IMG/VR virus record: IMGVR_UViG_3300006924_000190
Location: 1 to 23,419 of that record
Length of the DNA: 23,419 bases
Origin: a virus
Strand: one strand, 5' to 3'
Shown: positions 633-23,289 of the stretch, one piece after another
How the letters are laid out: each line of letters opens with the position of its first letter
Position numbering within the stretch: the stretch's first letter is position 1
Program-made: the position numbers and the translations under genes
The notes under the pieces: generated by a model
The model's database searches: none
Seen by the model: only the letters and a program-made list of their open reading frames with translations
Told to the model about the DNA's origin: nothing

Positions 633-768
633 CAAATACCCTTGGTTCTAGTTCTTCTATTGTAATTATGCTCGGCGAAAACCCAAGTGGCTCGGGTTCG
701 ATTTGTTTTTTAGTTACTGCTAAGTATAACACAGTTATTACAAAAAGTAAAGTAATCAGTCGAACCAT
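622..768 (-). CDS. Small single-span membrane protein (48 aa) between primase and helicase
   Basis: A 48-codon frame runs from ATG at 768-766 to TAG at 624-622 and overlaps both neighbours: 13 bases of the primase end and 11 bases of the helicase start. Residues 3-18 (RLITLLFVITVLYLAV) form one hydrophobic segment with positive residues nearby (R3, K20, K21). An acidic tail follows, ending EPRVFDDN. This is the layout of a tiny N-terminally anchored membrane protein. It fills exactly the gap that would otherwise separate primase from helicase, and both overlaps look like coupled junctions, which supports it being real. I do not recognise a family. It could be a membrane tether or a small host-interaction protein, but nothing in the sequence shows which. 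There is no strong Shine-Dalgarno sequence upstream. Confidence 0.55.
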   Translation of the reverse strand: MVRLITLLFVITVLYLAVTKKQIEPEPLGFSPSIITIEELEPRVFDDN

Positions 769-1739
769 TTCTTCGCTCTCAGTCTAATTTTTAATGCACT
801 GTCTTCGGCACTGCTTGCTATAGTATGTAATGCATATAACCTACCGTGTTTTTCTACTACATCACCTATGTCATTTAGTCCAGTAGGCCAATCAGGCATA
901 CTCACACTCCAACCTAGATCAATTGCTTCTTCTACTAGTTTACTTCCTGCCTTGTCACGATCAGGAACAACAATGATTTGCTTCTGTAGTCTATTGAGCA
1001 GCATTGCTTGCTGACTAGATATTTCACTACCACCTAGCGCACAACCTTCTATGTGTATAGCATCGACTTGTCCTTCACAGAGTATCGCAAATACTTTTTT
1101 ATAAGACTGCTCGTCTAGTCCGTACACAAACCCAGGTTGCACTTCGGTCAAGTACTTGGGCTTCTTGTCTGGGTTCACGCTACGTCCAGTCCATCCTACT
1201 ACCCTACCTTCAAAGTAGAAGGGTATGATCAATCTATCACGATACCCTAAGCTGGGGCTCCAGTAATAGTCTGTATCATCAACGTTTAAATTACGTGCAG
1301 CCATATACTCAAGTACTGCCATACTATACTTGTTGAAGTCTGTTATATCTGTAATCTTAACAGCATCATCTGGCAACGGAACAGTATTGAAAGTTGGTAG
1401 TTGGGCTATTTGTGTTTTAGCTTCAACCCCTTCATTTTCTCTCATAACCTCTAGTGCTACCTTATTGATTACATCGTCAGGTGCTCCCATCCATTGTAGG
1501 AGTTTACGCAGTTTATGTGAGAAGTTCCTGCCCGGTTGCCAGGACGCTTTGAAGCCGCAGTTAAAACAATGATAACTTACGCCTCCATCTGGGTTACTTA
1601 TAAGGCCACCACGGCCGCGAGTGTCTGCTGCGTGTCCATTATGGTGACAACACGTAGCATTAAAGGATAACCAGCCACTAGGCGTTTGTTTACGCTTAGC
1701 CGGCAAGTATGTCAGAACTGTTTCGCTTACTACACTCAT
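756..1739 (-). CDS. 61: DNA primase, T4 gp61 / DnaG-like
   Basis: Makes the RNA primers for lagging-strand synthesis, working with the gp41-type helicase encoded downstream. At 327 residues it is close to T4 gp61 (342). The N-terminal zinc-binding module shows CCHH at residues 30-33 and CFNC at 58-61. A central region follows (GWTGRSVNPDKKPKYL at about 182-197, a basic DnaG-like core segment), then a TOPRIM domain with the invariant glutamate in LCEGQVDAI (E222) and the metal-binding DRD in VPDRDKAG (D260, D262). ATG at 1739-1737 is the only start before the zinc motif. It has no ribosome binding site and sits six bases after a perfect -10 box, so it may be translated from a leaderless mRNA. 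The 48-residue membrane protein and the helicase follow with overlaps. Confidence 0.92.
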   Translation of the reverse strand: MSVVSETVLTYLPAKRKQTPSGWLSFNATCCHHNGHAADTRGRGGLISNPDGGVSYHCFNCGFKASWQPGRNFSHKLRKLLQWMGAPDDVINKVALEVMRENEGVEAKTQIAQLPTFNTVPLPDDAVKITDITDFNKYSMAVLEYMAARNLNVDDTDYYWSPSLGYRDRLIIPFYFEGRVVGWTGRSVNPDKKPKYLTEVQPGFVYGLDEQSYKKVFAILCEGQVDAIHIEGCALGGSEISSQQAMLLNRLQKQIIVVPDRDKAGSKLVEEAIDLGWSVSMPDWPTGLNDIGDVVEKHGRLYALHTIASSAEDSALKIRLRAKKWFD

Positions 1740-2482: not shown

Positions 2483-3264
2483 TAGTTCCTCACTAGTATT
2501 TTGGAAATTTTGTCTGCTGGATCTGCTGTTGCTTTAACACGTAAATGATTGAATACACCGTTAAAGTTTACAGGTGTAGGTTCTGTTTCTGTTCCGTCAA
2601 ACGTTACAGTTTCAATATCAGCCCAACTTGTTGATCCAGTTACTCGGTTTTCTAGTGTGCCCTGTACTACTACATCGCCTATATAACTGTCTGTATAAAA
2701 AGCCGCAGTGTGTAGAGCTTCATTGCCGTTAATACTCGGCTGTGCGTCGATAGACTCAGATAACCAAGCATCATTATCGGATACAAATGTGCCAATTGAA
2801 TAACTTGAACTAGGACCAGGAAATGCATTACCGCTGACTTTAATAATGCCAGGTGCTTCAAACCATTCGTTAGCATAAGTTTGTACTTTAGTATCGTCAT
2901 AGTCAACTAGATATACATTGTATGATAGAAACTGATCTTTTATATTCAATAAATCATTTTCAGTTATAGTAACTTTAAATAAACCTTTTTTAGTATATGC
3001 AGTACTATCACCTTCTTGTAGGTTTACACCATCGTGTTCGATAACCATCTGATTGTTTTCATCGAACGCTACAAACTTAGGTGTGTATCTATCTACATCT
3101 AATGGTTTTTGATCTGCGTTTAATAATCTAAATTCAAGGACATTATCTATTCCTTTATATACATTTAACTGTCTGCTATACACTGGTTTATACTCCGTAA
3201 CGAATCCTGCTTCATTTGCTAGGATGTTAATTCTGTTTGATACTAAATATCGTAAAGTTTGCAT
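2482..3264 (-). CDS. Probable virion structural protein (beta-sandwich domains)
   Basis: 260 residues, predicted almost entirely beta. Residues ~35-130 (VLEFRLLNADQKPLDV, then KGLFKVTITENDLL, then FLSYNVYLVDYDD) follow the pattern of the immunoglobulin-like N-terminal domain of BppU-type receptor-binding or baseplate proteins. Residues ~190-260 (DVVVQGTLENRVTGSTSW through FNHLRVKATADPADKISKILVRN) look like a second beta-sandwich of the sort found in phage tail decoration or carbohydrate-binding modules. No catalytic motif, signal peptide or membrane segment is visible. A late-type promoter lies just upstream of ATG 3264, as expected for a virion gene, and a glycosyltransferase follows. The structural role is a fold-level guess; the position on the particle is unknown. 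Confidence 0.5.
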   Translation of the reverse strand: MQTLRYLVSNRINILANEAGFVTEYKPVYSRQLNVYKGIDNVLEFRLLNADQKPLDVDRYTPKFVAFDENNQMVIEHDGVNLQEGDSTAYTKKGLFKVTITENDLLNIKDQFLSYNVYLVDYDDTKVQTYANEWFEAPGIIKVSGNAFPGPSSSYSIGTFVSDNDAWLSESIDAQPSINGNEALHTAAFYTDSYIGDVVVQGTLENRVTGSTSWADIETVTFDGTETEPTPVNFNGVFNHLRVKATADPADKISKILVRN

Positions 3265-3269
3265 AATAG

Positions 3270-3277
3270 TATTTATC
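3270..3277 (-). promoter_or_regulatory. T4-type late promoter before the virion-protein gene
   Basis: The minus strand reads GATAAATA (3277-3270), 7 of 8 matches to the T4 late consensus TATAAATA and a full match to the NATAAATA form described for marine T4-like phages. It is followed by CTATT and then ATG at 3264. In T4 the start site is six bases past the last A of the box, which here is the A of the ATG. The same sequence and spacing recur at 17722-17729. Confidence 0.7.
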
Positions 3278-3285
3278 GGATAACA

Positions 3286-3657
3286 ATGTTACTAAAAGAT
3301 ATCGAAGAAAATTTTCCATTCATTAGCGTAGTTCATTACGGTGGCGCCGAGTACGTCGGCATCGTTATAAATCAAGATCAGTATGTTACAAGTATGTACG
3401 TATACACTGATTTAAAAAGTGAAAAAGAAAAGAAGATGTTACTTGACTTAGGTGATGTATGGTGGTGGGAATCAAATCGAATGATACCTATCAACATCTT
3501 TTTAAGAACAGAAATGGATCAATTTCGTTATGCTATTCAAACAATGAACAGCAAAGATGTAAAAGTTACAATTGGTCCGTGTGTTAATCTAAACAACTTA
3601 GCAATTAAACGAGTAAAGCGTAAGTCAGTGCAACTAGTTAAGAAACCTAAGAGTTAA
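3286..3657 (+). CDS. Conserved-looking hypothetical protein, small basic C-terminus
   Basis: One of only two plus-strand genes in the window. I start it at ATG 3286 (MLLKDIEENFPF, 123 residues). An upstream in-frame ATG at 3259 would run through the late promoter and the start of the divergent gene, so it is less likely. The protein has an alternating beta/alpha look, a striking DVWWWESN block in the middle, IPINIFLR just after it, and a lysine/arginine-rich tail (KRVKRKSVQLVKKPKS) that could touch nucleic acid. I do not recognise a named family, although the style resembles hypotheticals conserved in marine T4-like phages. A possible promoter is TTGATA (3237-3242) with CATAAT (3262-3267), but the 19-base spacer is long. 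Its 3' end overlaps the convergent DnaE-like gene by 11 bases. Confidence 0.7.
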   Translation: MLLKDIEENFPFISVVHYGGAEYVGIVINQDQYVTSMYVYTDLKSEKEKKMLLDLGDVWWWESNRMIPINIFLRTEMDQFRYAIQTMNSKDVKVTIGPCVNLNNLAIKRVKRKSVQLVKKPKS

Positions 3658-4207
3658 TTTGTTCGCATAACAAATTCATATGGACTATGACACTTGTAGC
3701 ATACGCATATGCGTGTGCTTTCTTAAAGAAGTATGCTCCGTCTGTCGGCTTTGTCCATACTTCGTTCATTATCGTTTCCCAATTTTCTTTTGCTAAGTGT
3801 CGCTTTGCTGGTCTGATAATTGCCAGTGTAGCCGCCAATTGTTGTACCGAAGTAGGCTTCAATTGCTGTAATAGTTCGTCGTGACCGCTTAGATGAAATA
3901 CTTGATCTGAGAAGTCTTTGTGTTCCAGTAGTTGCCATATTGGCTCCTTTTCCATAAGTTCTTGTAAATGTGCCTCGTCTTTAACATCTTTATATATAGA
4001 CACATTTAAAAAATCTAGTTTAAAGTAACCTCTGTCTTCTGCTGTCTTGTGTTCAATTGTACTCAAGTTGTCTACAGGGTTATGGGGAATCTCTGTAGCA
4101 TAAACACCAGTGTTGTGCTTCTTGCCGGTGTTTAATTTTGCCACACGATGTTCAAGTTGAGATAAAATAACATCTCTGTCTGCAAAGTCTATATCAATAT
4201 CAGGCAT
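3647..4207 (-). CDS. Miniature DnaE-like protein (DNA polymerase III alpha palm motifs)
   Basis: 186 residues that read like a condensed bacterial replicative polymerase alpha subunit. It begins PDIDIDF (residues 2-8), the DnaE active-site strand with the first two catalytic aspartates. KHNTGVY (30-36) sits where DnaE has KHAGGVV, and KLDFLNVSI (63-71) where DnaE has KFDFLGLRT with the third catalytic aspartate (D65). VFHLSGHDELLQQLKP (103-118) matches DnaE VFQLES..., then AIIRPAK (129-135) and KKAHAYAYA (162-170), which match ALFRPGP and KSHAAAYAL. Family members are normally about 900-1,200 residues with a PHP domain, fingers and a tau-binding region; all of that is missing. It is the last gene of the uvsW operon, with an AGGAAAG ribosome site, and overlaps the upstream gene by 8 bases. 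Whether it polymerises anything is unknown. It could be a regulator or a domesticated fragment. Confidence 0.7.
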   Translation of the reverse strand: MPDIDIDFADRDVILSQLEHRVAKLNTGKKHNTGVYATEIPHNPVDNLSTIEHKTAEDRGYFKLDFLNVSIYKDVKDEAHLQELMEKEPIWQLLEHKDFSDQVFHLSGHDELLQQLKPTSVQQLAATLAIIRPAKRHLAKENWETIMNEVWTKPTDGAYFFKKAHAYAYATSVIVHMNLLCEQINS

Positions 4208-4400
4208 TGTTCTTTCCTATTTTTTCCCAATACACATCATACAATCCACTCGGGTGCCTTGACCCAAAAGGTAAACCCATATACTCATCGCCTGTTTCCA
4301 TATCTACTAATTTATATTTTGTAGGACACTCGGTATATACTAATAGGTTATCAGCGTTCTCTTCATCCTGTACTTCACTACCGTTTAATAATTTCCTCAT
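4200..4400 (-). CDS. Small hypothetical protein (66 aa)
   Basis: A 66-residue frame from ATG 4400-4398, locked into the operon: its ATG overlaps the stop of the oxygenase gene (ATGA) and its own stop overlaps the DnaE-like gene by 8 bases. The middle (TKYKLVDMETGDEYMGLP) looks like two short beta strands around a turn, and the N-terminal third is acidic. No membrane segment, cysteine pair or known motif is visible and I do not recognise it. A ribosome-binding sequence (GAAAG) lies within the last codons of the upstream gene. The coupled overlaps on both sides are the main evidence that it is real. Confidence 0.65.
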   Translation of the reverse strand: MRKLLNGSEVQDEENADNLLVYTECPTKYKLVDMETGDEYMGLPFGSRHPSGLYDVYWEKIGKNNA

Positions 4401-4417: not shown

Positions 4418-4990
4418 ATTATCTTTTGTTAAGGTTACATTAAACGAAATACTAATTCTATTATCCTTAGTATCATTTGATCTAACTCCGTGAAATAGCC
4501 AACTAGGAAATAAAAGAAACAAACCTTCTTTCGGTGGGTACTCTACATAATCATCTGGTGCTAGAAAATGTGAATTCATTAATGATACGATAGGATTTAA
4601 AAAATATATGTTCCCGTCTTTTTCGTTTGTCTTAAAATAATAAACACCGGAAATATGTGTAGTACCGTGATTATGTACAACTGTATGTTCTTTTGGTGCA
4701 GTGTTAGCTATCCAACAATCTTCTATAATAATATTATACTTTGTATTACTAAAACCCTTTGTATAGTTAATTACTTGTGTTTCTATTTCGTTCTTAAGTT
4801 GCGTTAAATTAAATTTAGTTATAATATTTTGATCAAAGTTAGGGCTACTTAACGAATGATTTTGCCCTCCCCAATCTGGATGTTTTTTAAAATCAATCTG
4901 TGAAGTACACGACGATATCTCTTTTTGTAAATTTTTAAAGTTAGTTGCGCTACCGATATGTATCGGTGTTTTAAACCATTCTTCTATCAT
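4397..4990 (-). CDS. Putative 2OG-Fe(II) oxygenase (TIGR02466 / 2OG-FeII_Oxy_5-like)
   Basis: 197 residues resembling the small 2-oxoglutarate/Fe(II) oxygenases often seen in marine T4-like phages. The core motif is a histidine-rich strand, HNHGTTHISGVYYF (about residues 105-118), equal in layout to the family's HxH...SGVYYl block. It is followed by GNIYFLNP, then LFLLFPSWLFHGV (about 151-163) holding the distal iron-ligand histidine, and RISISFNV, where the arginine would bind 2-oxoglutarate. The fold would be a double-stranded beta-helix acting in the cytoplasm. The substrate is unknown; hydroxylation of a protein, nucleotide or sugar are all possible. It sits between the zinc-finger gene (4-base overlap) and a 66-residue gene (4-base overlap). 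Both ends carry the same 21-base junction sequence, which may mean that it arrived as a cassette. Confidence 0.7.
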   Translation of the reverse strand: MIEEWFKTPIHIGSATNFKNLQKEISSCTSQIDFKKHPDWGGQNHSLSSPNFDQNIITKFNLTQLKNEIETQVINYTKGFSNTKYNIIIEDCWIANTAPKEHTVVHNHGTTHISGVYYFKTNEKDGNIYFLNPIVSLMNSHFLAPDDYVEYPPKEGLFLLFPSWLFHGVRSNDTKDNRISISFNVTLTKDNTQESKL

Positions 4991-5007
4991 AGTTTACTTT
5001 CCTGTGC
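4987..5007 (-). repeat. Duplicated gene-junction element, copy 2
   Basis: Contains the end of the zinc-finger gene (again QESKL then TGA) and the overlapping ATG of the oxygenase gene, with GGAAAG as the ribosome-binding sequence. It differs from 4397-4417 at three positions only. Confidence 0.6.
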
Positions 5008-5688
5008 AATCTCTTTTACTAGTTGCACATCATTTGGCAAACGTTTAAAACGCATTGCCCAGTGTTGAGGGTTAATAACGTGGAATACCATTTCAAGTTG
5101 TTCGTTGTTGAATTTACCTAGCATAGCTTTGCCAGACTTACAGTTTAGTAATAGCCAAGGACTAATCTTACCATCTTTAATATCCCATACTGCTCTGTTC
5201 AAACTAATATGGTTAAAGTAATGATCCCACGGAGCAGGATCATTATCAGCAGCCCATTCTAGCATTGTTTGTATACTACGCTCAAGTGCTGTAGTTACAT
5301 CTTCTTTTAGAATAAACTCTAATGCGTATTTTTCATACAGCTCATCTCTAGCCCAGTGATCTAATTTAACTCCACTAGTAACTACGTAGTCAATATATTT
5401 TTCAGGATATAAAGGCCGTACATTGCTAATAAAACTGCCAAATTTAACAAAAGCATTATAATAGGGTGACCCGACAAAATCTTCATACGTTTTTTCTTTT
5501 TTGTTACCTGCTGAGAGTTTATAGAATCTTTGAAATGCATATAGTCCATACCTTACTCTTTTTTCGTCTTTTTGTAGCCATCTTCTTTTCTTTTCGCACA
5601 TATGCGCCGCAAGAGTTTTCTCCCGCATATATCCATTACCACAATACTCACACTTGTATGGTTTCTCAGAGTTTGATATCAATATCAT
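4987..5688 (-). CDS. Zinc-finger protein of unknown function
   Basis: A C2HC-type finger sits at the very N-terminus: YKCEYCGNGYMREKTLAAHMC, with C13, C16, H29 and C31 counted from ATG 5688. A KKRR patch comes directly after. The remaining ~190 residues are helical and aromatic-rich (DHWARDELYEKYALEF, DPAPWDHYFNHISLNRAVWD, INPQHWAMRFKRLP) with no motif I know. It sits between the clamp-loader-like gene and an oxygenase, inside an operon headed by UvsW, so a replication or late-transcription role is plausible, but that is guilt by association. The start is uncertain. ATG 5736 would overlap the upstream gene by 71 bases. ATG 5688 has an AAAGGAG only one base away. A TTG at 5682 is ideally spaced (7 bases) from the same AAAGGAG. 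Confidence 0.75.
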   Translation of the reverse strand: MILISNSEKPYKCEYCGNGYMREKTLAAHMCEKKRRWLQKDEKRVRYGLYAFQRFYKLSAGNKKEKTYEDFVGSPYYNAFVKFGSFISNVRPLYPEKYIDYVVTSGVKLDHWARDELYEKYALEFILKEDVTTALERSIQTMLEWAADNDPAPWDHYFNHISLNRAVWDIKDGKISPWLLLNCKSGKAMLGKFNNEQLEMVFHVINPQHWAMRFKRLPNDVQLVKEIAQESKL

Positions 5689-6121
5689 ACTCCTTTGCAA
5701 GTTCTTTGAGTTCTTTTTTTGTAGATAATCCAGCAAGTAATTCTACCTCGTCTTGTTTCATATTAGGATGTATTTTTTGTAAAAGTTTTATAGCATTGTT
5801 GTTGCCTTTTTTCTTTTTAAATCCAATCCATTGATGTTTTCTAATCGCAGCAGATGCATTATGTGTTGAGCATAGCAACTGCCATTGTAATTGAGGATGT
5901 CTTGTACCTAACACATTCCAGTTCTTGTTATAGTATTCGTTAGTAAGTACAATAGCAAGTTCTTGTGCATCTCTTGATCCTTGTACACTACTTGCGTATC
6001 TGTTAAGCAACCAAAAGTTAACACACTTCTTTTGTTCGTCAGTTAATTCTTTCCAAACAGATTTAGCGTTGCTGTCAATACACGCTAGTACATCTTTTAC
6101 TGGAAATTCTTGGTATGCCAT
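5666..6121 (-). CDS. 62: Probable sliding-clamp-loader small subunit (gp62-like)
   Basis: 151 residues, all-helical in appearance. The pattern resembles the small clamp-loader subunit of marine T4-like phages: FWLLNRYASS (36-45, in the place of an INRCLS-type block), a central hydrophobic/aromatic helix with LQWQLLCS (77-84), then HQWIGFKKKKGNNNAIKLLQ (95-114), and a C-terminal helical repeat with MKQDEVELLAGLSTKKELKELAKEYDID. In T4, gp62 with gp44 loads the gp45 clamp onto primer ends. No gp44 or gp45 is in this window, which weakens the call. The ATG lies 25 bases inside the end of kdsB, with AGAGGA upstream, so a sugar gene and a replication gene are interlocked. The alternative is an unrelated small helical protein. 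I looked for an HNH motif and did not find one. Confidence 0.5.
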   Translation of the reverse strand: MAYQEFPVKDVLACIDSNAKSVWKELTDEQKKCVNFWLLNRYASSVQGSRDAQELAIVLTNEYYNKNWNVLGTRHPQLQWQLLCSTHNASAAIRKHQWIGFKKKKGNNNAIKLLQKIHPNMKQDEVELLAGLSTKKELKELAKEYDIDIKL

Positions 6122-6777
6122 TCGTCTACATCCTCTGGTGAATTTATCTCTACTCCATTATATTGTACACTCGAACAACCTATTTGCCAACCATTTTTGA
6201 GCCATCTAAGTTGTTCTAATTTTTCCGTTTCTTCTTCTACAGTTACTTTAAGAGTTTTGTACATTTCTAAAGAATTACGTTTATATCCGTATACACCTAA
6301 ATGCCAATCTCCGTACCCGGTCATACCTCTACCAAACCATAGAGCTTGATCGCCGGCACGTACCATCTTTACTGTATTAGGGTCTGCCTGTTTTTCTTTA
6401 GGCATATGCGTAAACAATGTACTGACAGGATAGTATTTTAGCCATCCAGTAGCCGTTAGAATCATCTCATCTGTTACGTCCGGCATATCGCCTTGTACAT
6501 TTATAAACTGTTCGTACTCATCTAATATGTTAAACTTAGCAACAGCGCCTGCACATCGTTCGGTTCCGTTTTCGTATTCGCTGTGATCTAATAGACAATC
6601 TGCACCTATTACATTGTATATGTTTTGATCATCAGTAAGCACATATGTTGGCTTCTTAGACGCAACACAAGCGTCATACACACGTTTTATCATAGGAACA
6701 CCGTTCAGCATAGCTAGAGGCTTTCCAGGGTAGCGTGTACTACCATATCTAGCGGGTATGAGTATTGCAGTTTTCAT
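6097..6777 (-). CDS. kdsB: CMP-Kdo synthetase (3-deoxy-manno-octulosonate cytidylyltransferase)
   Basis: Activates Kdo with CTP to give CMP-Kdo, the donor for Kdo transferases of lipopolysaccharide and capsule. 226 residues, slightly shorter than bacterial KdsB (~248). The N-terminal nucleotide-binding loop is IPARYGSTRYPGKPLAML (7-24), which corresponds to the family's PARxxSxRxPGKPL. GTERC (71-75) stands for the usual GT[DE]R, and NVQGDMPD (93-100) for NVQGDEP, with D97 as the expected magnesium ligand. The E-to-M change after that aspartate is unusual but lies outside the ligand itself. The gene starts directly on the stop of kdsA (TAAATG) with CAGGAG six bases upstream, so the two are co-translated. 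Its end overlaps the clamp-loader-like gene by 25 bases. The N-acylneuraminate cytidylyltransferase subfamily is less likely given the kdsA neighbour. Confidence 0.9.
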   Translation of the reverse strand: MKTAILIPARYGSTRYPGKPLAMLNGVPMIKRVYDACVASKKPTYVLTDDQNIYNVIGADCLLDHSEYENGTERCAGAVAKFNILDEYEQFINVQGDMPDVTDEMILTATGWLKYYPVSTLFTHMPKEKQADPNTVKMVRAGDQALWFGRGMTGYGDWHLGVYGYKRNSLEMYKTLKVTVEEETEKLEQLRWLKNGWQIGCSSVQYNGVEINSPEDVDEWHTKNFQ

Positions 6778-7605
6778 TTAGCACTCCTGATATCTAAAAC
6801 CTGTATAGTTTCTATCAAGAGGAACTTTTTCTTTAGGTGTATACGAATATGCTATAATATCTTCTACTACTTGTTCAAAATCCTCTAAACGTAGCATATT
6901 AGGTCCGTCACTGGGTGCTACATCAGGATCTGGATGGACTTCCAAGAAAAAGTCCCGTACCCCAAGAGCAGACCCGCTACGAGCCAACCCAGGCACGTAA
7001 TCACGATTGCCGCCTGAACTATCCCCTTGTCCGCCGGGTTTTTGTGCAGAGTGCGTACAATCGAAAACAATAGGATGTTCATAATTGTCGAGCATATACA
7101 TAATACCAGTATAATCAACGACAAGAGTGTTATAGCCAAAACTTGTTCCTCTCTCTGTTATCCAGACGTCTTTTGCGCCTTCACATTTACTTAGCACCCC
7201 TTTCATATCCCAAGGCGCCATAAACTGGCCTTTCTTAATATTAACAATTTTATCTGTACGACACGCTTCCTGTATAAGGTCAGTTTGTCTACATAAGAAT
7301 GCAGGTATCTGATAGACATCAACTGCATTTTTAAATTGTGCTTCTATATATTTTATTTGTTCTACAGAATGTACATCAGTTAATGTCTTTACACCATACT
7401 GTACTTTAAGAGCAAGAAAGTCTGTCAGAGTTGCTTCTAGTCCAACACCACGCTTACCCTGCATACTACTACGATTTGCTTTATCAAAACTTGCTTTAAA
7501 TATATATTCAATACCGTACTTGTCGCATACACGTTTACATTCTTTAGCAATCTCTGCACTGTGTGCTAATGATTCGTGTTGGCAAGGGCCTGCTATAATT
7601 CTCAT
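6778..7605 (-). CDS. kdsA: Kdo-8-phosphate synthase (2-dehydro-3-deoxyphosphooctonate aldolase), metal-dependent type
   Basis: Condenses phosphoenolpyruvate with arabinose-5-phosphate to Kdo-8-phosphate. 275 residues, near the family length of ~280. Motifs in order: IAGPC (4-8), KASFDKANRSS (37-47), TLTDVH (74-79), IPAFLCRQTDL (100-110), KKGQFMAPWDM (124-134), ERGTSFGYNTLVVD (151-164), FDCTHSAQKPGG (181-192), EVHPDPDVAPSDGPNML (222-238). A cysteine in the IAGPC motif (C8), with H185, E222 and D233, is the ligand set of the metal-dependent class; E. coli KdsA has Asn there. The start overlaps the upstream cupin stop by four bases, and GGAGGAAG is the ribosome site. Kdo-8-phosphate phosphatase (KdsC) and the arabinose-5-phosphate isomerase are not in the window, so the host or other phage genes must supply them. 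Confidence 0.93.
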   Translation of the reverse strand: MRIIAGPCQHESLAHSAEIAKECKRVCDKYGIEYIFKASFDKANRSSMQGKRGVGLEATLTDFLALKVQYGVKTLTDVHSVEQIKYIEAQFKNAVDVYQIPAFLCRQTDLIQEACRTDKIVNIKKGQFMAPWDMKGVLSKCEGAKDVWITERGTSFGYNTLVVDYTGIMYMLDNYEHPIVFDCTHSAQKPGGQGDSSGGNRDYVPGLARSGSALGVRDFFLEVHPDPDVAPSDGPNMLRLEDFEQVVEDIIAYSYTPKEKVPLDRNYTGFRYQEC

Positions 7606-7931
7606 TGTTTTCTTCCTCCGTCAAATACGCAAATAAATTTTAATCCAAAGTCTGTATTATTATGTACTTTGTGGAATACGTTGTCTTCAATTAGTACAGT
7701 GTCGCCTGCTGTAACATCGAATATTTTATGATCAAGTTCCATTTGTCCACTACCTTTAACAAACATATACACTTCTTCTTGTCCAGCGTGTCTATGTCCT
7801 GTTGTACTTTTATGAGCTGATAACATTGTACTGCTTACAACTAAATTTTTTAACATAGTATTATCTTTAACAATATAACGATTGTCATTTTTAACTACAT
7901 CGCCTCCTATATCCCATTCACTGTATTTCAT
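7602..7931 (-). CDS. Single-domain cupin
   Basis: 109 residues with the two conserved cupin motifs. Motif 1 is HRHAGQEEVYMFVKGSG (about 47-63), giving the HxH...E metal ligands and the glycine turn. Motif 2 is DTVLIEDNVFHKVHN (about 77-91), with the fourth histidine. This is the layout of cupin-2 proteins that bind a divalent metal in a small beta-barrel. It starts four bases inside the end of the upstream small gene (ATGA) and overlaps kdsA by four bases. The position suggests a sugar-phosphate or nucleotide-sugar step such as isomerisation or epimerisation, but no specific substrate can be assigned. AAGGAA precedes the ATG. Confidence 0.8.
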   Translation of the reverse strand: MKYSEWDIGGDVVKNDNRYIVKDNTMLKNLVVSSTMLSAHKSTTGHRHAGQEEVYMFVKGSGQMELDHKIFDVTAGDTVLIEDNVFHKVHNNTDFGLKFICVFDGGRKQ

Positions 7932-8158
7932 TTGTGTTCCTTAATTGTATAATAAGTTGTTACTAAGGTATCTAATAGTTTTTTTAGTGTTGGATATTCT
8001 TCTGACAACTCACATAATTCTTGCCACTCGGCATAACTTATTAAGTCTCCTTGAGCTCTAGCAACTCCTGCCGGGTCTCCGCCTATAATCCAGCGAGGTA
8101 TCTCGGGCCTGTTTTGATAACGAGCGTAGACAACACCATCGTTACGCTCGTATATCAA
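7928..8158 (-). CDS. Small hypothetical protein
   Basis: The clear protein-like part begins around LIYERNDGVVYARYQNRPEIPRW, then GGDPAGVARAQGDLISYAEWQELCELSEEYPTLKKLLD, and ends TYYTIKEHK. The style is that of short conserved hypotheticals in marine T4-like phages. I do not recognise a function. The start is open. An ATG at 8248 would overlap the upstream cupin by 86 bases, far more than any other junction here. A GTG at 8197 gives 35 bases of overlap. A TTG at 8158 lies four bases past the cupin stop and directly precedes the conserved part, so I use that. None has a strong ribosome site. The alternating charged/aromatic helix at residues ~40-70 could mediate protein contacts. Confidence 0.6.
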   Translation of the reverse strand: MIYERNDGVVYARYQNRPEIPRWIIGGDPAGVARAQGDLISYAEWQELCELSEEYPTLKKLLDTLVTTYYTIKEHK

Positions 8159-8162
8159 TGCT

Positions 8163-8525
8163 TCATTTGGTTTTAGTTTTGCCAATTGCTGTTCCACTTG
8201 TTCTACGTACAATATCGTTGTGATTAAACTCTGCCCAATATAGCTCAAATGCTACACCGTCTTCGATACCTTCAAACTGGTGGATCTTGCCTGGCTTTAC
8301 TTGTGTAAAGTCTCCTGCTTCAAGAATAGTTTCATCAACTAGTCCTTGGTCGTCTTGCCAAACACGCACAAGCATCTTTCCTGACTCTACATAAAAGCCG
8401 TTCCATTTAAATTGATGTTCGTGTTCGCTACATTTGTAGCCGCCTTTATATTCAATACGGTGAAACTCTAATACTCCGTTAGCGTGGATCAATTCCGTTT
8501 GACCCCAAATTTTACCTGCTTTCAT
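8163..8525 (-). CDS. Cupin-domain protein
   Basis: 120 residues from ATG 8525. An ATG two codons earlier (8531) is only one base from the GGAG ribosome site, whereas 8525 is seven bases away and is preferred. Motif 1 is CSEHEHQFKWNGFYVESGKM (HxH...), motif 2 LEAGDFTQVKPGKIHQFEG with its histidine, then FELYWAEF, a strand typical of cupins. Compared with the cupin at 7602-7931 the first motif is less standard: W/N/G replaces the usual glutamate region, though a glutamate follows in VESG. It may therefore bind metal differently or only a ligand. It is the first of the sugar-related genes in the uvsW operon. A role in Kdo or another nucleotide-sugar pathway is inferred from position. Confidence 0.72.
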   Translation of the reverse strand: MKAGKIWGQTELIHANGVLEFHRIEYKGGYKCSEHEHQFKWNGFYVESGKMLVRVWQDDQGLVDETILEAGDFTQVKPGKIHQFEGIEDGVAFELYWAEFNHNDIVRRTSGTAIGKTKTK

Positions 8526-8542
8526 TGTCATTCTCCATTTCC

Positions 8543-9054: not shown

Positions 9055-10518
9055 TTAGTTCCAATCTACTTTTTCTATAGTGAAAGGATACTGTGCTTCC
9101 TTATAGAATTTTTTACGTTGTGTTAAATGTCTCTTTGCAAATTTGCACGATGATGTGATATCCCAAATTTGTACAAAGTCTTTGTCTTTTGCCTTACGAA
9201 CGCCTCTACCAATACTTTGAATTACCCTGACAAAACTTTTGCCAGGCTCAAGCAGAACAAGATTAAAAATACGCGGTATATTAATACCAACAGCCGCGAC
9301 TCCGTATGTTGCGATAACCACGTGGTTAGTTCCTTCATTAATTTCATCATATGCTTCCTTGCGATCTTTTAATTTTACATCGCCCTTTACAAACACACTA
9401 CCTGGTATTAGTTCTTGAAGTATTTCCCCAGCACTAATTCTATCTACAAGTATAAGTGTGTTTCCTGATTCTTTTACTGTGCTTAATAATTTGCCTATGT
9501 ATTCTAATCTTGCCTGATTTGTTGTTAAATATTTTAATTCTGATTGATAATCTGAGTGTGATTGTGTATCTAATAATTGTACTACGTTAACGTGACATTG
9601 TGATAGTACACCCTTGTCTTGTAATTCTTTAGCACTAATTTGACCAATTACAGGACCAAGACTAGCGTGAATACTTTCAAACTCAAACTTCTCTCTTGGC
9701 ACAGTGCCTGTTAGTCCCCAACGTATCGGAGCGTTCTTTAAATTACGTGTAAGTAAATTCTTTAGTACTTCTGCTTTAGCCTGGTGTACTTCGTCGACAA
9801 TAATAGTGCTTACACCATCTAAGAACTCAGCTAATGATAATACTGCTGTTCCGTCCTTGTGCTTCTTGTCGAGTATATTCAAACTCTGCCAAGTGCAAAT
9901 AGTGTGAGTCTTACCTAACTCTTTTCTGTCGCCGAAGTACACCCCAGCATCGAGCCCGCAGTTAATATAGTCTTCCTCTGTTTGTGTAACAAGACTCTTG
10001 TTAGGCACGATAATAAGACTACGTCCATACGGCTCAGTTATATGTGAAAGTGTTGCTGTAGTAATTGTTTTACCTGCACCAGTAGCAATCTGTTGCAAGC
10101 TCTGTGGATGTTTTAAAAAGTTGTTAATTGACTCTACTTGATAGTCACGCAGAATAATTTCTTCACCTTCTGCAGGATGTCCTTTTGGCCAACGTACATT
10201 TTGATCAGCCCAATAACGTTCTGTTACTGGTTGGAAGTCAAATTGTATAGGATGTCTATTGTCTTCAATGTCTATTATTTGTACATTATTTTTTTGCAAA
10301 ACTTCACTAACAACATCAAGATGATTAACATAGCCAGTACCGCCAATACCAAAGAAAGCAACTTTGCCGTCCCATCGACCAAGTTTATATTGTGGCATAT
10401 ACTTTGCGTATGGCACTTCAAACTTAAGAGCATTCGCGAGCTTTCTCCGTACATCAACCTCTAGTCCTTCTAGCTTAATGTTTACTTCATCTTCAATTAT
10501 TAGTTTGCAAGTTGCCAT
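9055..10518 (-). CDS. uvsW: UvsW-type SF2 DNA/RNA helicase
   Basis: RecG-like repair and replication-fork helicase that in T4 unwinds R-loops and drives branch migration, switching replication from origins to recombination. 487 residues from ATG 10518, whose A is the last base of the upstream stop (TAATG). An in-frame ATG ten codons earlier lies inside the neighbour. The N-terminal substrate-recognition domain covers residues ~1-120 (RWDGKVAFF). SF2 motifs follow: LRDYQ (Q-motif region), Walker A ATGAGKT (145-151), DEVH (242-245), TGTVPR (motif III), VIATYGVAAVGINIP (motif V) and QSIGRGVRK (motif VI with its arginine fingers). T4 UvsW is about 500 residues, so this is full length. It follows the 405-residue unknown gene in the operon driven from 11742-11770. 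Confidence 0.93.
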   Translation of the reverse strand: MATCKLIIEDEVNIKLEGLEVDVRRKLANALKFEVPYAKYMPQYKLGRWDGKVAFFGIGGTGYVNHLDVVSEVLQKNNVQIIDIEDNRHPIQFDFQPVTERYWADQNVRWPKGHPAEGEEIILRDYQVESINNFLKHPQSLQQIATGAGKTITTATLSHITEPYGRSLIIVPNKSLVTQTEEDYINCGLDAGVYFGDRKELGKTHTICTWQSLNILDKKHKDGTAVLSLAEFLDGVSTIIVDEVHQAKAEVLKNLLTRNLKNAPIRWGLTGTVPREKFEFESIHASLGPVIGQISAKELQDKGVLSQCHVNVVQLLDTQSHSDYQSELKYLTTNQARLEYIGKLLSTVKESGNTLILVDRISAGEILQELIPGSVFVKGDVKLKDRKEAYDEINEGTNHVVIATYGVAAVGINIPRIFNLVLLEPGKSFVRVIQSIGRGVRKAKDKDFVQIWDITSSCKFAKRHLTQRKKFYKEAQYPFTIEKVDWN

Positions 10519-11735
10519 TAAAGGGTCTCTATTTGTTTTCGTTTCCAAGGACTAACATCAGAATCATAATGCATTACAAGATCTAGCATCTCAATATATG
10601 CATCTGTTTTTGCGCCAGCACTTCTATTTGAGGAAGTTGTTATAGCAGTAATCGGTAACCAATCACTTTTTAACAAAGGCTTCGGAACTTTATTATTACT
10701 AATATACACTATTTTTGTATTATTGTCAACCTTATTATTAAGATTATTAGCTTTGATATATTGATTAAATTCCTCACCTTCTGAATTATTATCTAATCTA
10801 AATAATACACTACAACGTTCATTTGGTATTATACCACTAAACGCTCTATGAAACTGTACTAATTCGTCATAACATTGTTTTTCATTTAAAACTATTACTA
10901 AAGGAAAACGATATAATTCAAGTATTACTTCTGCTAAATTATTAATTGTGTATTGTGATGAATTAACTAATACTTGGTGAGACTCTCTATTAACAATTTT
11001 TTGAGATAACGGAGTTAGATGTTTTAAACTTTCAAGTAAATCGTCTTTATCAAAATGGTATAATCCTAATCGATCTTTTTGATCGTAAAATTGACATAGA
11101 TTATCTGCTGTTGGAGTACCGACACTACTAATAGCATAGTCTAAACTTTTAGTATGTAAGTTTTTAAGTTGCATTCCGTATATGCCTGGTATATAATTCT
11201 GTTTGTTGTTTTTCATTTCTTTTAACTTTTCAAAATATACAAGAAGTTCGTCTTGAACTTCAAAATTAGTAATGTCTTTAAATGTGCTTACTACATCATA
11301 TACATTACTTTCGCTTAATTTAAAATAATGGATTTTATATTCTTTATCATAAAATGCGTCTTGTGAGTCTGACATTAATCTTTTTAATTTGTCAAGTTGT
11401 AGAATTAATTTCTTTTGAAAAATAAATCTAATGCCTATCCACAATTCGTTATCATTTAATTCAACAATCTTAATCCATCTACTTCTGTCAATAGAACGCA
11501 ATGGCATACGCAACTGCGATAACTCGTTTACTTCATAGTTATTTTTTTCAAGTTGTTCTTTGTAATAACTAATTTTTGTTTTAGCAAGGTCACATTGCCT
11601 GTCGGTAAACGGTATACTATTTGATATTTGTTTTGCAAAACTAAACATAAGAGAATGGTCACTGCTATCTAGTGTTATGTCTGCACTACCTTGGAATCCG
11701 GTAAGGAGTTCTATATAATCTTCTACTGTAAACAT
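10518..11735 (-). CDS. Unrecognised 405-aa protein, leading gene of the uvsW operon
   Basis: A full-length, well-formed gene with no family I can name. Features: an N-terminal helical part with PFTDRQCDLAKTKISYYKEQLE (here PFTDRQCDLAK and ISYYKEQLE), IDRSRWIKI and IGIRFIFQKKLI strands, a middle part with YDKEYKIHYFKL and FEVQDELLVYFEKL, and a C-terminal part that may be a Rossmann-like domain: FPLVIVLNEKQ, CSVLFRLDN, TKIVYISNNKVPKPLLKSDW. It ends SPWKRKQIETL. There is no Walker A, DEAD or zinc motif. The partition into a DNA-binding-like N-terminal half and a helicase-like second-domain pattern hints at a degenerate helicase partner of UvsW, but this is speculation. The ATG at 11735 has no ribosome site and lies six bases after a -10 box. 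Its stop overlaps the uvsW start by one base. Confidence 0.8.
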   Translation of the reverse strand: MFTVEDYIELLTGFQGSADITLDSSDHSLMFSFAKQISNSIPFTDRQCDLAKTKISYYKEQLEKNNYEVNELSQLRMPLRSIDRSRWIKIVELNDNELWIGIRFIFQKKLILQLDKLKRLMSDSQDAFYDKEYKIHYFKLSESNVYDVVSTFKDITNFEVQDELLVYFEKLKEMKNNKQNYIPGIYGMQLKNLHTKSLDYAISSVGTPTADNLCQFYDQKDRLGLYHFDKDDLLESLKHLTPLSQKIVNRESHQVLVNSSQYTINNLAEVILELYRFPLVIVLNEKQCYDELVQFHRAFSGIIPNERCSVLFRLDNNSEGEEFNQYIKANNLNNKVDNNTKIVYISNNKVPKPLLKSDWLPITAITTSSNRSAGAKTDAYIEMLDLVMHYDSDVSPWKRKQIETL

Positions 11736-11741: not shown

Positions 11742-11770
11742 AGTATACGCTAAACTATCTTAGATGTCAA
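11742..11770 (-). promoter_or_regulatory. Sigma70-type promoter for the uvsW-kds operon
   Basis: The minus strand has TTGACA (11770-11765), a 17-base spacer and TATACT (11747-11742), matching 11 of 12 consensus positions. Six bases separate the -10 box from ATG 11735, the same geometry as the promoter at 1746-1774. The expected transcription start is on or beside the ATG. The -35 box lies in the last codons of the upstream Kps-like gene (stop at 11750-11752). Confidence 0.82.
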
Positions 11771-12628
11771 GTGTTTAAGTGGTAAGCCTTGAGAAATTTC
11801 GTCAACTGTATATTCAGTATGAGCGTAGTCGTTCAGCCATTGTGTACGATCTGGCATTACAGGATTTTCAATATCGTGTAAAAAGTCTATATCGTTGGCT
11901 ACAGGATAAGCAAGACTATGAGTGCTAACAAAACTAGGAACGCCGGCGATGATACTATGTATGCCAGGGTTACTACTGTAGCTGATAGTACAATGTACAT
12001 TATTAAACCCCATATCAAAATCATCGTAAGTATTGGCAATTTGTTTAGGTTCCTGTCTTGTTACGTGTTTAAGACCACGTTCTATGTGTTCTAGTCTACA
12101 TCGTGGGTGAGGTCGAAATATAATAGGTCGGTCAGTGTATTTACGTATTTCGTCATAGGTATTTAAGAACCAGTTGCTCATACGAGGCATACCTTGCCAT
12201 TGTAAACTCTTGTCGTGTTGACCACATATTAAAACATAATCGCCGTTGGATCTCCAAGGTTTACAAACCAGTCCCAGGCTATCAGCCCTAACCCTATCAT
12301 TGTCTTTGTCACCAAAGTAAGCAGTTCTGTTGATTCCATTTAATCCTACTTTCCAAGTTGTGCCGCGATTAATGCCGCCAACTTCTAATACTATAACAGG
12401 TTTATCTAACATACGATTTTGTTCCCAAACCGTTTGATTTTTTGACATTCTGCCGTGCCATAGTACACTCCATATAACAGCAACATCATAGTTACTATAA
12501 TGGCCGCCAACTCTATAAGGCTCATTGTATACTACTTTATGGCCAGCGTCAATTACACTCTTTGCAAATGCTTCAAACACTGGCTTACTGTTTAGTGCGC
12601 CATAATCAGTGTATAGACAGAAAATCAT
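11750..12628 (-). CDS. KpsC/KpsS-like capsule biosynthesis (Kdo-transferase-like) protein
   Basis: 292 residues, one of five related domains in this window. Shared blocks: KPWRSNGDYVLICGQHDKS (123-141, equal to the Q..D strand of capsule-synthesis proteins), KYTDRPIIFRPHPR (163-176), CTISYSSNPGIHSIIAGVPSF (a donor-site-like SSNP..H..I.G.P block), and a C-terminal tail DIENPVMPDRTQWLNDYAHTEYTVDEISQGLPLKHL. KpsC and KpsS are beta-Kdo transferases that build the poly-Kdo linker of group 2 capsules, so this may use the CMP-Kdo made by KdsA/KdsB; the link is inference. It has GGAG ten bases upstream and an AT-rich palindromic promoter region shared with the divergent glycosyltransferase. The enzyme class is plausible, the exact reaction unknown. 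Confidence 0.6.
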   Translation of the reverse strand: MIFCLYTDYGALNSKPVFEAFAKSVIDAGHKVVYNEPYRVGGHYSNYDVAVIWSVLWHGRMSKNQTVWEQNRMLDKPVIVLEVGGINRGTTWKVGLNGINRTAYFGDKDNDRVRADSLGLVCKPWRSNGDYVLICGQHDKSLQWQGMPRMSNWFLNTYDEIRKYTDRPIIFRPHPRCRLEHIERGLKHVTRQEPKQIANTYDDFDMGFNNVHCTISYSSNPGIHSIIAGVPSFVSTHSLAYPVANDIDFLHDIENPVMPDRTQWLNDYAHTEYTVDEISQGLPLKHLTSKIV

Positions 12629-12630
12629 TA

Positions 12631-12657
12631 GTTAAATACTCCATATACATATTTAAC
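12631..12657. promoter_or_regulatory. Palindromic divergent intergenic region (possible paired late-type promoters)
   Basis: GTTAAATA (12631-12638) and its exact inverse TATTTAAC (12650-12657) flank an 11-base centre. Each arm, read outward toward its own gene, resembles the late box (TTAAATA against ATAAATA). Starts placed by the T4 spacing would both fall near 12644. Unlike the leaderless cases, both genes keep a ribosome site (AGAGGA for the plus gene, GGAG for the minus gene). The palindrome could equally be an operator. Confidence 0.4.
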
Positions 12658-12669
12658 AAGAGGAACGAT

Positions 12670-13512
12670 ATGACACCAATAACAGTGGTTACAACCTTTC
12701 ATAAGCCAGGATTAGACACATACGGTCAACGATTCTTAGATAGTTTTGCAGAACGAGTTAGTAAAAAGATAAAGCTATTAGTATACGCAGAAGATTGTAA
12801 TCCAATCAACCCCGATCCGAAACAGATAACAATTCTTGATGCTAAAGAAGTATTACCTAAATTAAATGTATTTAAGGAACGTTGGAAGAATGATCCTAGA
12901 GCAAACGGCATACCTACAGACGCTATTAAAGCACGTAGACCGCGGGATTGGCACAAGAAATTTAAATGGGACGCCATACGCTTTGCTAACAAAACATATG
13001 CTGTGTATGACGCTTGTACACGTTCTAAAGGCTGGTGTGTATGGATGGATGCTGATACATTTATTCATAGTGATTGGAGCCATAAAGAATTTAATAACTT
13101 ATTACCAAATAATACCTGGTTAACATATGTAGGTAGGGGTAAAGGATCTCAGACGTGGCCAGAGTGCGGCTTCTATGGTATGAACTTAAATCATCCTGTA
13201 TGTCACGAGTTCCTTAAAGAGTTTGAACGTGTATACGAAGAAGCCGAACAAGGTATATTCTTATTAGAAGAATGGCACGATAGTTTCGTGTTCGGACACA
13301 TTCTTAATAATATGAAAAAAGAGTTTCCTAACGTGTTAGATTATAGTGCTGAAATGTATTTGAAAGAAGCTCGTACAGGCGGAGGCGGACATCCTTTAAT
13401 TAATAGTGTATTAGGTAAATGGATGGATCATATGAAAGGCGTCCGCAAGGAAGAAGGAAAAAGTCGATCACGAGATTTAATGGTTAATAGAACTGAGGAT
13501 TATTGGAAATAA
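12670..13512 (+). CDS. GT-A-fold glycosyltransferase-like protein with DxD motif
   Basis: 280 residues, starting at ATG 12670 with AGAGGA seven bases upstream; an earlier in-frame ATG lies within the divergent gene. It opens PITVVTTFHKPGLDTYGQRFLDSF (blocks ITVVTTF and LDTYGQRFLDSF), continues with KLLVYAEDC (36-43), and carries the metal-binding DxD in VWMDADTF (D127, D129), then GFYGMNLNHP and WHDSFVFG, which would form the acceptor side. It is clearly a paralogue of 1766-2482. It is the only plus-strand gene in the sugar island, divergent from the Kps-like gene and ending exactly against the stop of the next minus-strand gene (13512/13513). Donor and acceptor are unknown. A family of small phage and marine-bacterial sugar transferases is the best guess. 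Confidence 0.72.
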   Translation: MTPITVVTTFHKPGLDTYGQRFLDSFAERVSKKIKLLVYAEDCNPINPDPKQITILDAKEVLPKLNVFKERWKNDPRANGIPTDAIKARRPRDWHKKFKWDAIRFANKTYAVYDACTRSKGWCVWMDADTFIHSDWSHKEFNNLLPNNTWLTYVGRGKGSQTWPECGFYGMNLNHPVCHEFLKEFERVYEEAEQGIFLLEEWHDSFVFGHILNNMKKEFPNVLDYSAEMYLKEARTGGGGHPLINSVLGKWMDHMKGVRKEEGKSRSRDLMVNRTEDYWK

Positions 13513-14358
13513 CTAATGCTGTAAGTGTTTCCAAGCAAACCCATTATACATTTCTGTTTGTGTAAACTGACAGTAAGATAGGTGAGTTAAGAAAGCAATC
13601 ATTTCGCTCTGAGTTGGGATTTTTGGATTTTCTATATTTTTTAGATCTGTTTCACATATAGATTGTGCAGCATTTGGTCCAAGTACAATGGCAGGTTTTC
13701 CTGCCATTAATGCTTCTGTAGCAGCAATACTATTGTATGTTACTAAACAATGTATATCATCTTTTAATGCGTCTTTCATATTTTTAACAGTTTGTCTTTC
13801 AGTTCTACTAGGCTTCAAGCGTACTTCAATAGGTCTATCAGTATATTGCCTTAACTCTTTAATAACTTTCTCAGTCCACTCCTGCGGACTTGGTTGTTGG
13901 AAAAATCCCATAACTTTTTTACTAGGTGGACATATTAATATTTTTTTACCCGGAGTAAATGAATTAATCTTTTTTTCTAACGGCATTTCTACATCTTGTC
14001 CAAAATAAGAAAGAAGTTGTTGAGACAGTCTTCGTTTGTCTCGCGGTATAAATGTATTTGTGTTTTGAAATCCATTGTATGTAATTCGATGCCATACTTT
14101 TCTTTTAACATTACCAAAATACCCTGTATCAATATGATAAAATGGTAAATTATTTTTCATAGACAATAAAATATACTTGCCTACAGATTCTGACATACCT
14201 CTTCCTACCAAAGGCAACGAATTTGTAATTGCATCACTCGCAGGTAATAACTGCTTATTGATTCCTTTTGCAAACTGTTGTAAAATAGAATCGCAACGAA
14301 AGTTGCATTCATAAGAACTTGAATTCATATTAATAGCAGCGACCTTAACAACTTTCAT
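13513..14358 (-). CDS. KpsC/KpsS-like capsule biosynthesis protein, stand-alone copy
   Basis: 281 residues from ATG 14358, which overlaps the upstream stop as ATGA; an ATG 57 bases earlier is inside the neighbour. It opens MKVVKVAAINMNSSSY. Blocks: YHIDTGYFGN, KILICPPSKKVMGFFQQPSP, RQYTDRPIEVRLKP (about 171-184), HCLVTYNSIAATEALMAGKPAIVLGPNA (split: HCLVTYNSIAATEAL then MAGKPAIVLGPNA), and a tail IENPKIPTQSEMIAFLTHLSYCQF. It is very similar along most of its length to residues ~300-560 of the fusion protein at 15268-16971, so one arose from the other by duplication. A lysine replaces the histidine of RPHP found in other copies (RLKP), which may alter donor binding. Expected to act on the cytoplasmic face in polysaccharide or glycolipid assembly; substrate unknown. 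Confidence 0.62.
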   Translation of the reverse strand: MKVVKVAAINMNSSSYECNFRCDSILQQFAKGINKQLLPASDAITNSLPLVGRGMSESVGKYILLSMKNNLPFYHIDTGYFGNVKRKVWHRITYNGFQNTNTFIPRDKRRLSQQLLSYFGQDVEMPLEKKINSFTPGKKILICPPSKKVMGFFQQPSPQEWTEKVIKELRQYTDRPIEVRLKPSRTERQTVKNMKDALKDDIHCLVTYNSIAATEALMAGKPAIVLGPNAAQSICETDLKNIENPKIPTQSEMIAFLTHLSYCQFTQTEMYNGFAWKHLQH

Positions 14359-22200: not shown

Positions 22201-23289
22201 CTACTCCTCGATTGGTTGTAAGTCTTCTAGTTCTACCTCATCAGTAGCCTCATCATCGGTATTTACCACTTCTGATTGTTTTACTAGATAATCTGACATA
22301 ACCTTGTCAAGATTCTCTCCTATCCATTTTTTACGATAATCAAGAATTTCTTCACCATCAAGTGTAGTGTATGCAAGCCTATTACCTTGCTTGTTAATAA
22401 TGCCTTTTGCTTCAAATAATTCAAGCAAACCACTATATGGATTCATACCAGTTTCGTATGGAATCTTTACCTGTACGCCTTCAAACGGTTTAGCATAACG
22501 AGTCTTCATAACTTTACAGCCAGCACGGATACCCATAACTTGACTGATCTTGTTACCATCTTCGTCTTCTTTTAGTTTTAGTTTCTTCATTGCTACAACA
22601 ATACTTGATGCATAAATGAAACCTTGTCCACCACTGATCTTATCATCTGGATCAAACATATCCTGTGATGCATAAGTGTGATTAGTACATACTAAACCTA
22701 CGTTGTGACTACCAATCATATTAACTGTGTTACGAACAAGTGAAGTCAATGCCTTAGGCTTACGACCCATATCACCTTTCATATCACCTTTGTTAAACTG
22801 ATCAACGTCTGTAGGTGTTAGTAACATACCTAAACTATCAATAACAAATAACACCTTAGGACGTTCTTCTTCATCCATTGCTTTGTAATCTGTCATAAAT
22901 GAACTAATAGTTTTAGCAACATCGTCAATCATTGACATATTAAGTTTAAGTAGTTTTTCTTCTGATGTATCAACATCAAGTGCATGTAACCAGCTTTCAT
23001 CAAGTGCATTCTCTGAGTCAATTAATACTACAAAGATACCTTGATCCTGTGCCGCCTTTACAATGTTACCTGAACAGATATATGATTTACCTGCGCCAGA
23101 TTCACCAGCAAACACAGTTACCTTACCAAGCGGAACACCTTTGTTAAAGTCGCCACTAATAAGATAGTTTAGTGCAAAGTTACCTGTGCTGATCCAGTCT
23201 TTAGGATCGTTAAACCCACTACTCATTCCTGAGATAGATTTTGTTAAGTCCTTACGGAACTTAGTCGGATCGAATGATTTATTCGCCAT
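22201..23289 (-). CDS. uvsX: UvsX recombinase (RecA-like)
   Basis: Strand-exchange recombinase that coats ssDNA and pairs it with a homologous duplex, with ATP. 362 residues; T4 UvsX is about 390. Walker A is GESGAGKS (62-69) in VFAGESGAGKSYI. LFVIDSLGML is Walker B (around residues 147-157), followed by QFNKGDMKGDMGRKPKALTSLVRN (parts GDMKGDMGRKPKAL and TSLVRN) and GLVCTNHTYA. KISGGQGFIYAS is the UvsX-type L2-like region. The C-terminus is acidic (DEATDEVELEDLQPIEE). ATG 23289 has an AGGAG ribosome site six bases upstream. It begins the uvsX-uvsY-sugar operon; its promoter lies outside or in the unresolved 130 bases to the right. Confidence 0.94.
   Translation of the reverse strand: MANKSFDPTKFRKDLTKSISGMSSGFNDPKDWISTGNFALNYLISGDFNKGVPLGKVTVFAGESGAGKSYICSGNIVKAAQDQGIFVVLIDSENALDESWLHALDVDTSEEKLLKLNMSMIDDVAKTISSFMTDYKAMDEEERPKVLFVIDSLGMLLTPTDVDQFNKGDMKGDMGRKPKALTSLVRNTVNMIGSHNVGLVCTNHTYASQDMFDPDDKISGGQGFIYASSIVVAMKKLKLKEDEDGNKISQVMGIRAGCKVMKTRYAKPFEGVQVKIPYETGMNPYSGLLELFEAKGIINKQGNRLAYTTLDGEEILDYRKKWIGENLDKVMSDYLVKQSEVVNTDDEATDEVELEDLQPIEE

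Follow-up and report, generated by a model that had tools for sequence, protein, structure and literature searches.

Gene and neighborhood of the C-half

The window analyzed in this study is the whole stretch of 23,419 nucleotides of the IMG/VR virus record IMGVR_UViG_3300006924_000190. In the ORF listing of the window, an ORF of 186 amino acids starts with an ATG at position 4207 and lies on the minus strand (Table 1), while the plus-strand frame over the same positions contains many stops; the ORF named in the preliminary description thus exists at the proposed length, and its strand is the minus strand. The protein matches phrog_11778, annotated as DNA polymerase (E = 3.7e-59), and phrog_405, the family of full-length DnaE (E = 1.9e-7). 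Its sole Pfam match is to DNA_pol3_finger, which is weak and sub-threshold (E = 0.017), and no Pfam match to PHP or HhH was obtained. We refer to this protein as the C-half, after the part of the DnaE polymerase core with which it aligns. A single-sequence phmmer search of the PDB gave no match, and hhalign of the C-half against the single E. coli DnaE sequence gave a weak alignment with a misplaced N-terminus; therefore, family profiles and fold comparison were needed. Relatives were found by tblastn in 61 phage records, the organism names of which cover at least 10 host genera, including RaK2, K64-1, PBECO4, 121Q, GAP32, CBB, and PA5oct, as well as Paride, Phosso, Atu_ph07, SCTP-2, XacN1, RAS14, and others, and are encoded on at least 546 IMG/VR stretches.

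A small ORF overlaps the start of the C-half gene by 8 bases, and a small gene is likewise located ahead of the C-half in Phosso; translational coupling of the two ORFs is possible. On the other side, the last 11 bases of the C-half gene are shared with the 3' end of a convergent conserved gene. Behind the C-half, a convergent gene is also located in RaK2, Paride, Phosso, Atu_ph07, GAP32, SCTP-2, and PBECO4, which include very distant jumbo phages, and in most of these seven a virion-structural gene, the gp61 primase, and/or the gp41 helicase come after the C-half as well. The gene order of the window agrees with that of these phages as far as the window extends. The gp61-type primase is a neighbor of the C-half in RaK2 and Paride as well, and UvsW is also upstream of the C-half in RaK2. 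The presence of UvsX, UvsW, and the gp61-type primase identifies the window as a fragment of a T4-superfamily phage.

Several other genes were observed in the window. Two overlapping ORFs at 5666-6121 and 4987-5736 match phrog_11758 and phrog_11058, respectively, and the latter has a weak zinc-finger-like match at its N-terminus. Positions 6097-8531 encode a cytidylyltransferase like CMP-KDO synthetase (PF02348), a protein of the DAHP/KDO8P-synthase family (PF00793), and two consecutive cupins, and these domain matches suggest a phage-encoded pathway for a KDO-like sugar. A long surface-glycan cluster at 11750-21512 contains a glycosyltransferase family 8-like protein, a CTP_transf_like domain fused to a mannose-6-phosphate-isomerase-type cupin, methyltransferase-like and GSCFA proteins, and several related ORFs without a Pfam match.

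Table 1. Positions of the C-half gene, its motifs, and neighboring genes in the window, and of the unsplit DnaE in relatives
Feature	Position	Strand	Remarks
Probable C-half of split minimal DnaE (phrog_11778; catalytic palm strands and reduced fingers)	3647..4207	-	ORF, profile, fold
MPDIDID, catalytic D3 and D5 (E. coli D401 and D403) and D7 (E. coli D405)	4187..4207	-	Invariant
KLDFL, K63 and third catalytic aspartate D65 (E. coli D555)	4007..4021	-	K63 and D65 invariant
Finger motif I131-R132-P133-x-K135 (E. coli FRPG)	3803..3817	-	Invariant
C-terminal finger motif KKAHAYAY, residues 162-169 (E. coli NKSHSAAY)	3701..3724	-	
Small 66-aa ORF, overlaps C-half start	4200..4400	-	Weak phrog_4098 match, E = 4e-4
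Convergent conserved gene (phrog_11637)	3259..3657	+	E = 2.4e-33
DNA primase, T4 gp61 type, same replication cluster	756..1739	-	phrog_47, E = 3.9e-40
UvsW-type DNA helicase, upstream of C-half on the same strand	9055..10548	-	Profile matches
UvsX-type recombinase	22201..23289	-	phrog_97, E = 3.2e-69
Unsplit compact PHP-less 551-aa DnaE (relatives)	L292 1426-3081; also L100, L101, L389-L468		

Fold and active-site residues of the C-half

The AlphaFold2 model of the 186-amino-acid protein, built on an alignment of 80 relatives (mean pLDDT = 92.9, pTM = 0.82), takes the Pol3 palm/fingers fold according to Foldseek and VIA-align 2. In VIA-align 2, 184 of the 186 residues align with residues 461 to 838 of Taq DnaE (Z-score = 9.7, RMSD = 3.7) and 180 residues with residues 400 to 781 of E. 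coli DnaE (Z-score = 9.2), within the region of about 390 to 790 proposed for comparison in the preliminary description; PolC residues 971 to 1296 also align (Z-score = 9.4). The best 14 entries are all family C polymerases (Z-scores of 9.7 to 6.5), and the next chain, which is unrelated, has a Z-score of 3.3. The top Foldseek ranks are likewise occupied only by Pol III alpha chains (best E = 2.7e-3, probability = 1.00), and in the HMMER profile the K-x-D-x-L strand of the family is aligned to the KxDFL strand in DnaE chains of solved structure. All of the DnaE motifs quoted previously (PDIDIDF, HNTGV, KLDFL, VFHLSGH...LKP, IIRPAK, and AHAYAYA) are present in the order given, and chance resemblance is ruled out by the matches to phrog_11778 and phrog_405, the existence of relatives, and the fold alignment to family C. 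The proposed DnaE origin is therefore borne out by the profiles, the fold, and the conservation described below. Both outcomes that the preliminary description had named as refuting it, a predicted fold different from that of DnaE and aspartates that vary among homologues, were looked for, and neither was observed.

Asp3, Asp5, Asp7, and Asp65 are invariant in two alignments, one of 16 diverse members and one of 81 mostly marine members, as are His31, Gly34, Lys63, Arg132, Pro133, Lys135, and His165; in the KKAHAYAY motif, which contains His165, Lys163 and Tyr169 are invariant or nearly so. The DxDxD motif is present in all 189 C-half loci, and the K-x-D-x-L strand in all or nearly all of them. 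In E. coli DnaE, Asp401, Asp403, and Asp555 are the catalytic aspartates, which are absolutely conserved in the C family (Timinskas et al., PMC3919608), and the corresponding triad of Asp3, Asp5, and Asp65, to which attention had been drawn before, is retained without exception in both alignments. Asp405 is conserved in DnaE and is replaced by Asn in PolC (PMC3919608); since the corresponding Asp7 is invariant, a PolC origin is disfavored relative to a DnaE origin. The dN/dS of the C-half against its relatives is about 0.1, which indicates strong purifying selection on the C-half gene.

The C-half lacks approximately 190 of the 382 residues of the E. coli span, most of them from two places: the stretch that separates PDIDIDF from HNTGV, which corresponds to the thumb in the E. 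coli structure, and the mid-finger region. The PHP, thumb, mid-finger, OB, and tau-binding parts, together with everything after approximately residue 781 of the E. coli enzyme, are missing from the C-half, and because the thumb and the middle of the fingers are missing, binding of a template-primer is doubtful. The PHP and tau-binding parts are thus absent as had been stated, whereas the fingers, listed with them, are reduced rather than absent: VFHLSGH...LKP, IIRPAK, and KKAHAYAYA are finger motifs, the Pfam match is to DNA_pol3_finger, and the alignment extends to residue 781. The PHP and (HhH)2 domains are nearly universal in cellular C-family polymerases (PMC3919608). As the C-half spans only residues 400 to 781 and has neither PHP nor HhH, it is derived from family C but is not a canonical DnaE.

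The N-half gene and the division of the polymerase core

When long relatives were searched with a DnaE profile, a second short gene was found in RaK2, Paride, Phosso, Atu_ph07, and the IMG/VR contig G002. Its product (phrog_11127), referred to here as the N-half, ends in GxGRGS...EFL[KR], which is followed by a stop codon. PF07733 matches the N-half of G002 (E = 1.7e-9), and the N-half profile matches residues 209 to 393 of E. coli DnaE (E = 2.6e-5). The model of the N-half alone is less confident than that of the C-half (pLDDT of 79, and about 60 for the GRGS loop). It aligns with residues 271 to 393 of E. coli DnaE, 287 to 455 of Taq DnaE, 303 to 413 of the M. smegmatis chain, and 818 to 965 of PolC, and in the same chains the C-half starts at residues 400, 461, 419, and 971, respectively. 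The gap between the two halves on the polymerase core is thus 5 to 6 residues, in the loop just ahead of PDxDxD. GRGS takes the position of the Gly-Ser motif found in palms of the Pol beta type, so that the break would divide a single active site over two chains.

The GxGRGS motif is present in all 185 N-half loci, and a stop codon is located 29 to 31 residues downstream in all of those inspected; no fused N-C gene was seen among the inspected loci of either half. The open frame before DxDxD in the C-half loci is mostly shorter than 20 residues, with a maximum of 53. Because the N-half stops so soon after GRGS and the leader of the C-half is short, neither edge of the break has room for intein halves, and a split intein of the cyanobacterial DnaE type was rejected. 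In the isolate genomes measured, the two genes are not adjacent but 14.6 to 224 kb apart, which excludes a frameshift or an assembly artifact. The N-half gene is located near a GroES-like gene and the clamp loader gene gp44 in GAP32, PBECO4, SCTP-2, and XacN1.

The N-half is present in 60 of the 61 phage records that have the C-half. The sole exception, W12-3, is an "UNVERIFIED" record of 110 kb, and related genomes are approximately 346 kb. Among the C-half-bearing IMG/VR contigs of 220 kb or more, both halves are encoded in ten (G002, G011-G016, and G027-G029). On one further contig of 262 kb (G001, locus L010), in which the C-half is 80% identical, no N-half, PolB, or unsplit DnaE was detected; this may be an incomplete contig or a phage with a different replicase. 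The N-half and C-half trees agree (r = 0.75, 0 of 2000 permutations), as those of any two core genes might.

In comparison with DnaE (E. coli and T. aquaticus) and PolC, the two halves retain the palm/fingers fold, the triad equivalent to Asp401, Asp403, and Asp555, and the HxGGV-like, KxDFL, RP, and NKSH motifs, with the additional aspartate typical of DnaE and not of PolC. They differ in forming a split enzyme without the PHP, thumb, HhH, clamp motif, OB, and tau-binding domain, in which the core is cut between E. coli residues 393 and 400 and approximately 370 residues in total stand against approximately 1160 in DnaE.

Other polymerases in the relatives and interpretation

PolB matches were found in the complete relatives, and none was found on the window fragment. 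The PolB of G002 is an intact ORF of 889 residues with exonuclease and YGDTDS motifs. Marine relatives encode a PHP-less, unsplit DnaE of 551 residues, found on contigs G008, G009, G026, and others and on at least 308 IMG/VR stretches in total, which matches PF07733 (E = 1.2e-42) and PF17657 (E = 5.5e-16); in G026 its gene is directly behind a DnaB/gp41-like helicase gene. The closest record in the annotated collection is that of a 484-kb uncultured phage (LR756508, 36% identity). The DnaE profile did not find the unsplit DnaE in G001-G007 or G010. In each of the 16 longest contigs tested, the C-half is 6 to 10 kb from the unsplit gene, which is downstream on the same strand, and this coexistence on one contig rejects the unsplit protein as the intact form of the C-half gene. 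Neither a recognizable PolB nor a stand-alone N-half was found on these 16 contigs, all of which are fragments of 22 to 101 kb. In the window, the place expected for the unsplit DnaE falls past the contig end. The arrangement observed in these relatives raises the tentative possibility, which we regard as rather doubtful, that in the marine lineage the trans-split, thumb-less pair is a specialized two-subunit polymerase beside the unsplit DnaE and that family C replaces family B in part or all of replication.

We consider it likely that the 186-amino-acid protein is the catalytic C-half of a two-chain minimal core of a family C (DnaE-type) polymerase. With the C-half would come the palm sheet and its three aspartates that bind metal, as well as a reduced fingers subdomain; the N-half would bring the GxGRGS loop and the palm helices ahead of that sheet. 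Docking across the palm, which is interrupted in the loop from DnaE residue 393 to 400, would then unite both chains in one active site. Since the thumb, HhH, and clamp-binding parts are missing, such a complex, which also has no PHP, OB, or tau-binding part, is expected to be distributive, and it would act as a non-proofreading nucleotidyltransferase beside a gp43-type polymerase. From the neighborhood and by analogy, it is most likely an accessory polymerase beside the family B gp43. Because the C-half gene is beside gp61 and gp41 and the N-half gene beside gp44, it may carry out brief primer extension or gap filling at the phage replisome before gp43 takes over. The proposed analogue is B. 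subtilis DnaE, which extends RNA primers ahead of PolC (PMC5627055) and is likewise a second enzyme of family C that is linked to primase and helicase and works beside the main polymerase of replication; it differs in being a full-length enzyme with clamp and SSB interactions, so that the parallel suggests a function. Counting against the two-chain core are the N-half gene, which is outside the 23-kb window and is known from relatives, and G001, possibly a fragment, which has neither the N-half nor PolB, as well as the lower confidence of the N-half model and the missing thumb and mid-finger parts.

The two halves might also form a complex that does not polymerize but serves as a structural or regulatory module, for example by holding the primase, helicase, or gp43, with an active site that binds only a nucleotide or metal. 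The lack of a thumb, of mid-fingers, and of every processivity part would fit this reading, as would the location of the gene beside the primase and helicase. A purely structural role, however, needs none of the residues known to be essential for DnaE catalysis, all of which are invariant in both halves, and we consider such a module unlikely. That the C-half is a small, non-processive nucleotidyltransferase in its own right, acting without any need of the N-half, is still less probable. The protein has a confidently predicted fold by itself and all three metal ligands on board, but GRGS, which belongs to the same active site, is part of the N-half, and the halves co-occur almost without exception and cover adjoining ranges of the DnaE core. 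The non-processive nucleotidyltransferase suggested in the preliminary description is possible as an activity, although hardly as a stand-alone protein, given that part of the active site is encoded by a separate gene. Also proposed in that description was a decoy to which the beta clamp or clamp loader of the host would bind. A DnaE-like fold could mimic the host replicase and compete for beta, tau, or epsilon, and there is general precedent in phage proteins that target the host clamp; however, none of the binding regions concerned, neither PHP (which binds epsilon) nor the clamp motif after HhH nor the tau domain at the C-terminus, lies within E. coli residues 400 to 781, the clamp- and tau-binding regions being C-terminal of the retained part, and a decoy has no need of an invariant triad, which makes this reading highly improbable. 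Equally implausible is a degenerate relic of an acquired dnaE gene, as had also been considered: the large deletions relative to cellular DnaE would fit, but the low dN/dS, an active site invariant over at least 189 loci and hundreds of relatives, and a gene order kept in distant jumbo phages contradict it.

In 2021, Iyer et al. (Viruses 13:63, PMC7824862) described a DNA polymerase III alpha of group 2.2 jumbo phages that is both minimal and split, with an NTP-binding N part and a Mg/template-binding C part encoded by distant genes. The protein in the window is a marine case of the same polymerase: it belongs to the same family (phrog_11778) and is a separate short C-terminal unit with the Mg-binding aspartates and a template-binding part, and the division between distant genes and the company of a family B polymerase are both seen in its relatives. 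By the same comparison, it differs in coming from a fragment of an uncultured IMG/VR virus with relatives from marine metagenomes and no N-half on the contig, and in having close relatives that add an unsplit compact DnaE. No experimental test or biochemistry of the 2021 prediction was found in the literature. Weinheimer and Aylward (2022, PMC9123017) list PF07733 as the single frequent unique domain of a large cluster of marine jumbo phages; their PF07733 records probably include the present N-half, since the N-half matches PF07733 and marine relatives abound. Only the domain is listed in that survey, and the split is not mentioned. What is new here is the exact tiling of the halves on solved structures, their near-universal pairing, the invariance of residues in both, and the possible variant with an unsplit DnaE.

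Given the tiling, the invariance, and the co-occurrence, laboratory coliphages in which both halves are encoded would lend themselves to a clean reconstitution. If the two-chain reading is true, the complex of approximately 370 residues would be the smallest family C polymerase and a gauge of how much of DnaE catalysis needs, and one active site would be common to two chains whose genes are far apart. The retention of a polymerase of the bacterial type by jumbo phages that already have one of family B would then be explained. Iyer et al. (PMC7824862) have proposed that the phage version models an ancestral form, and the two-chain reading would have a bearing on this proposal as well.
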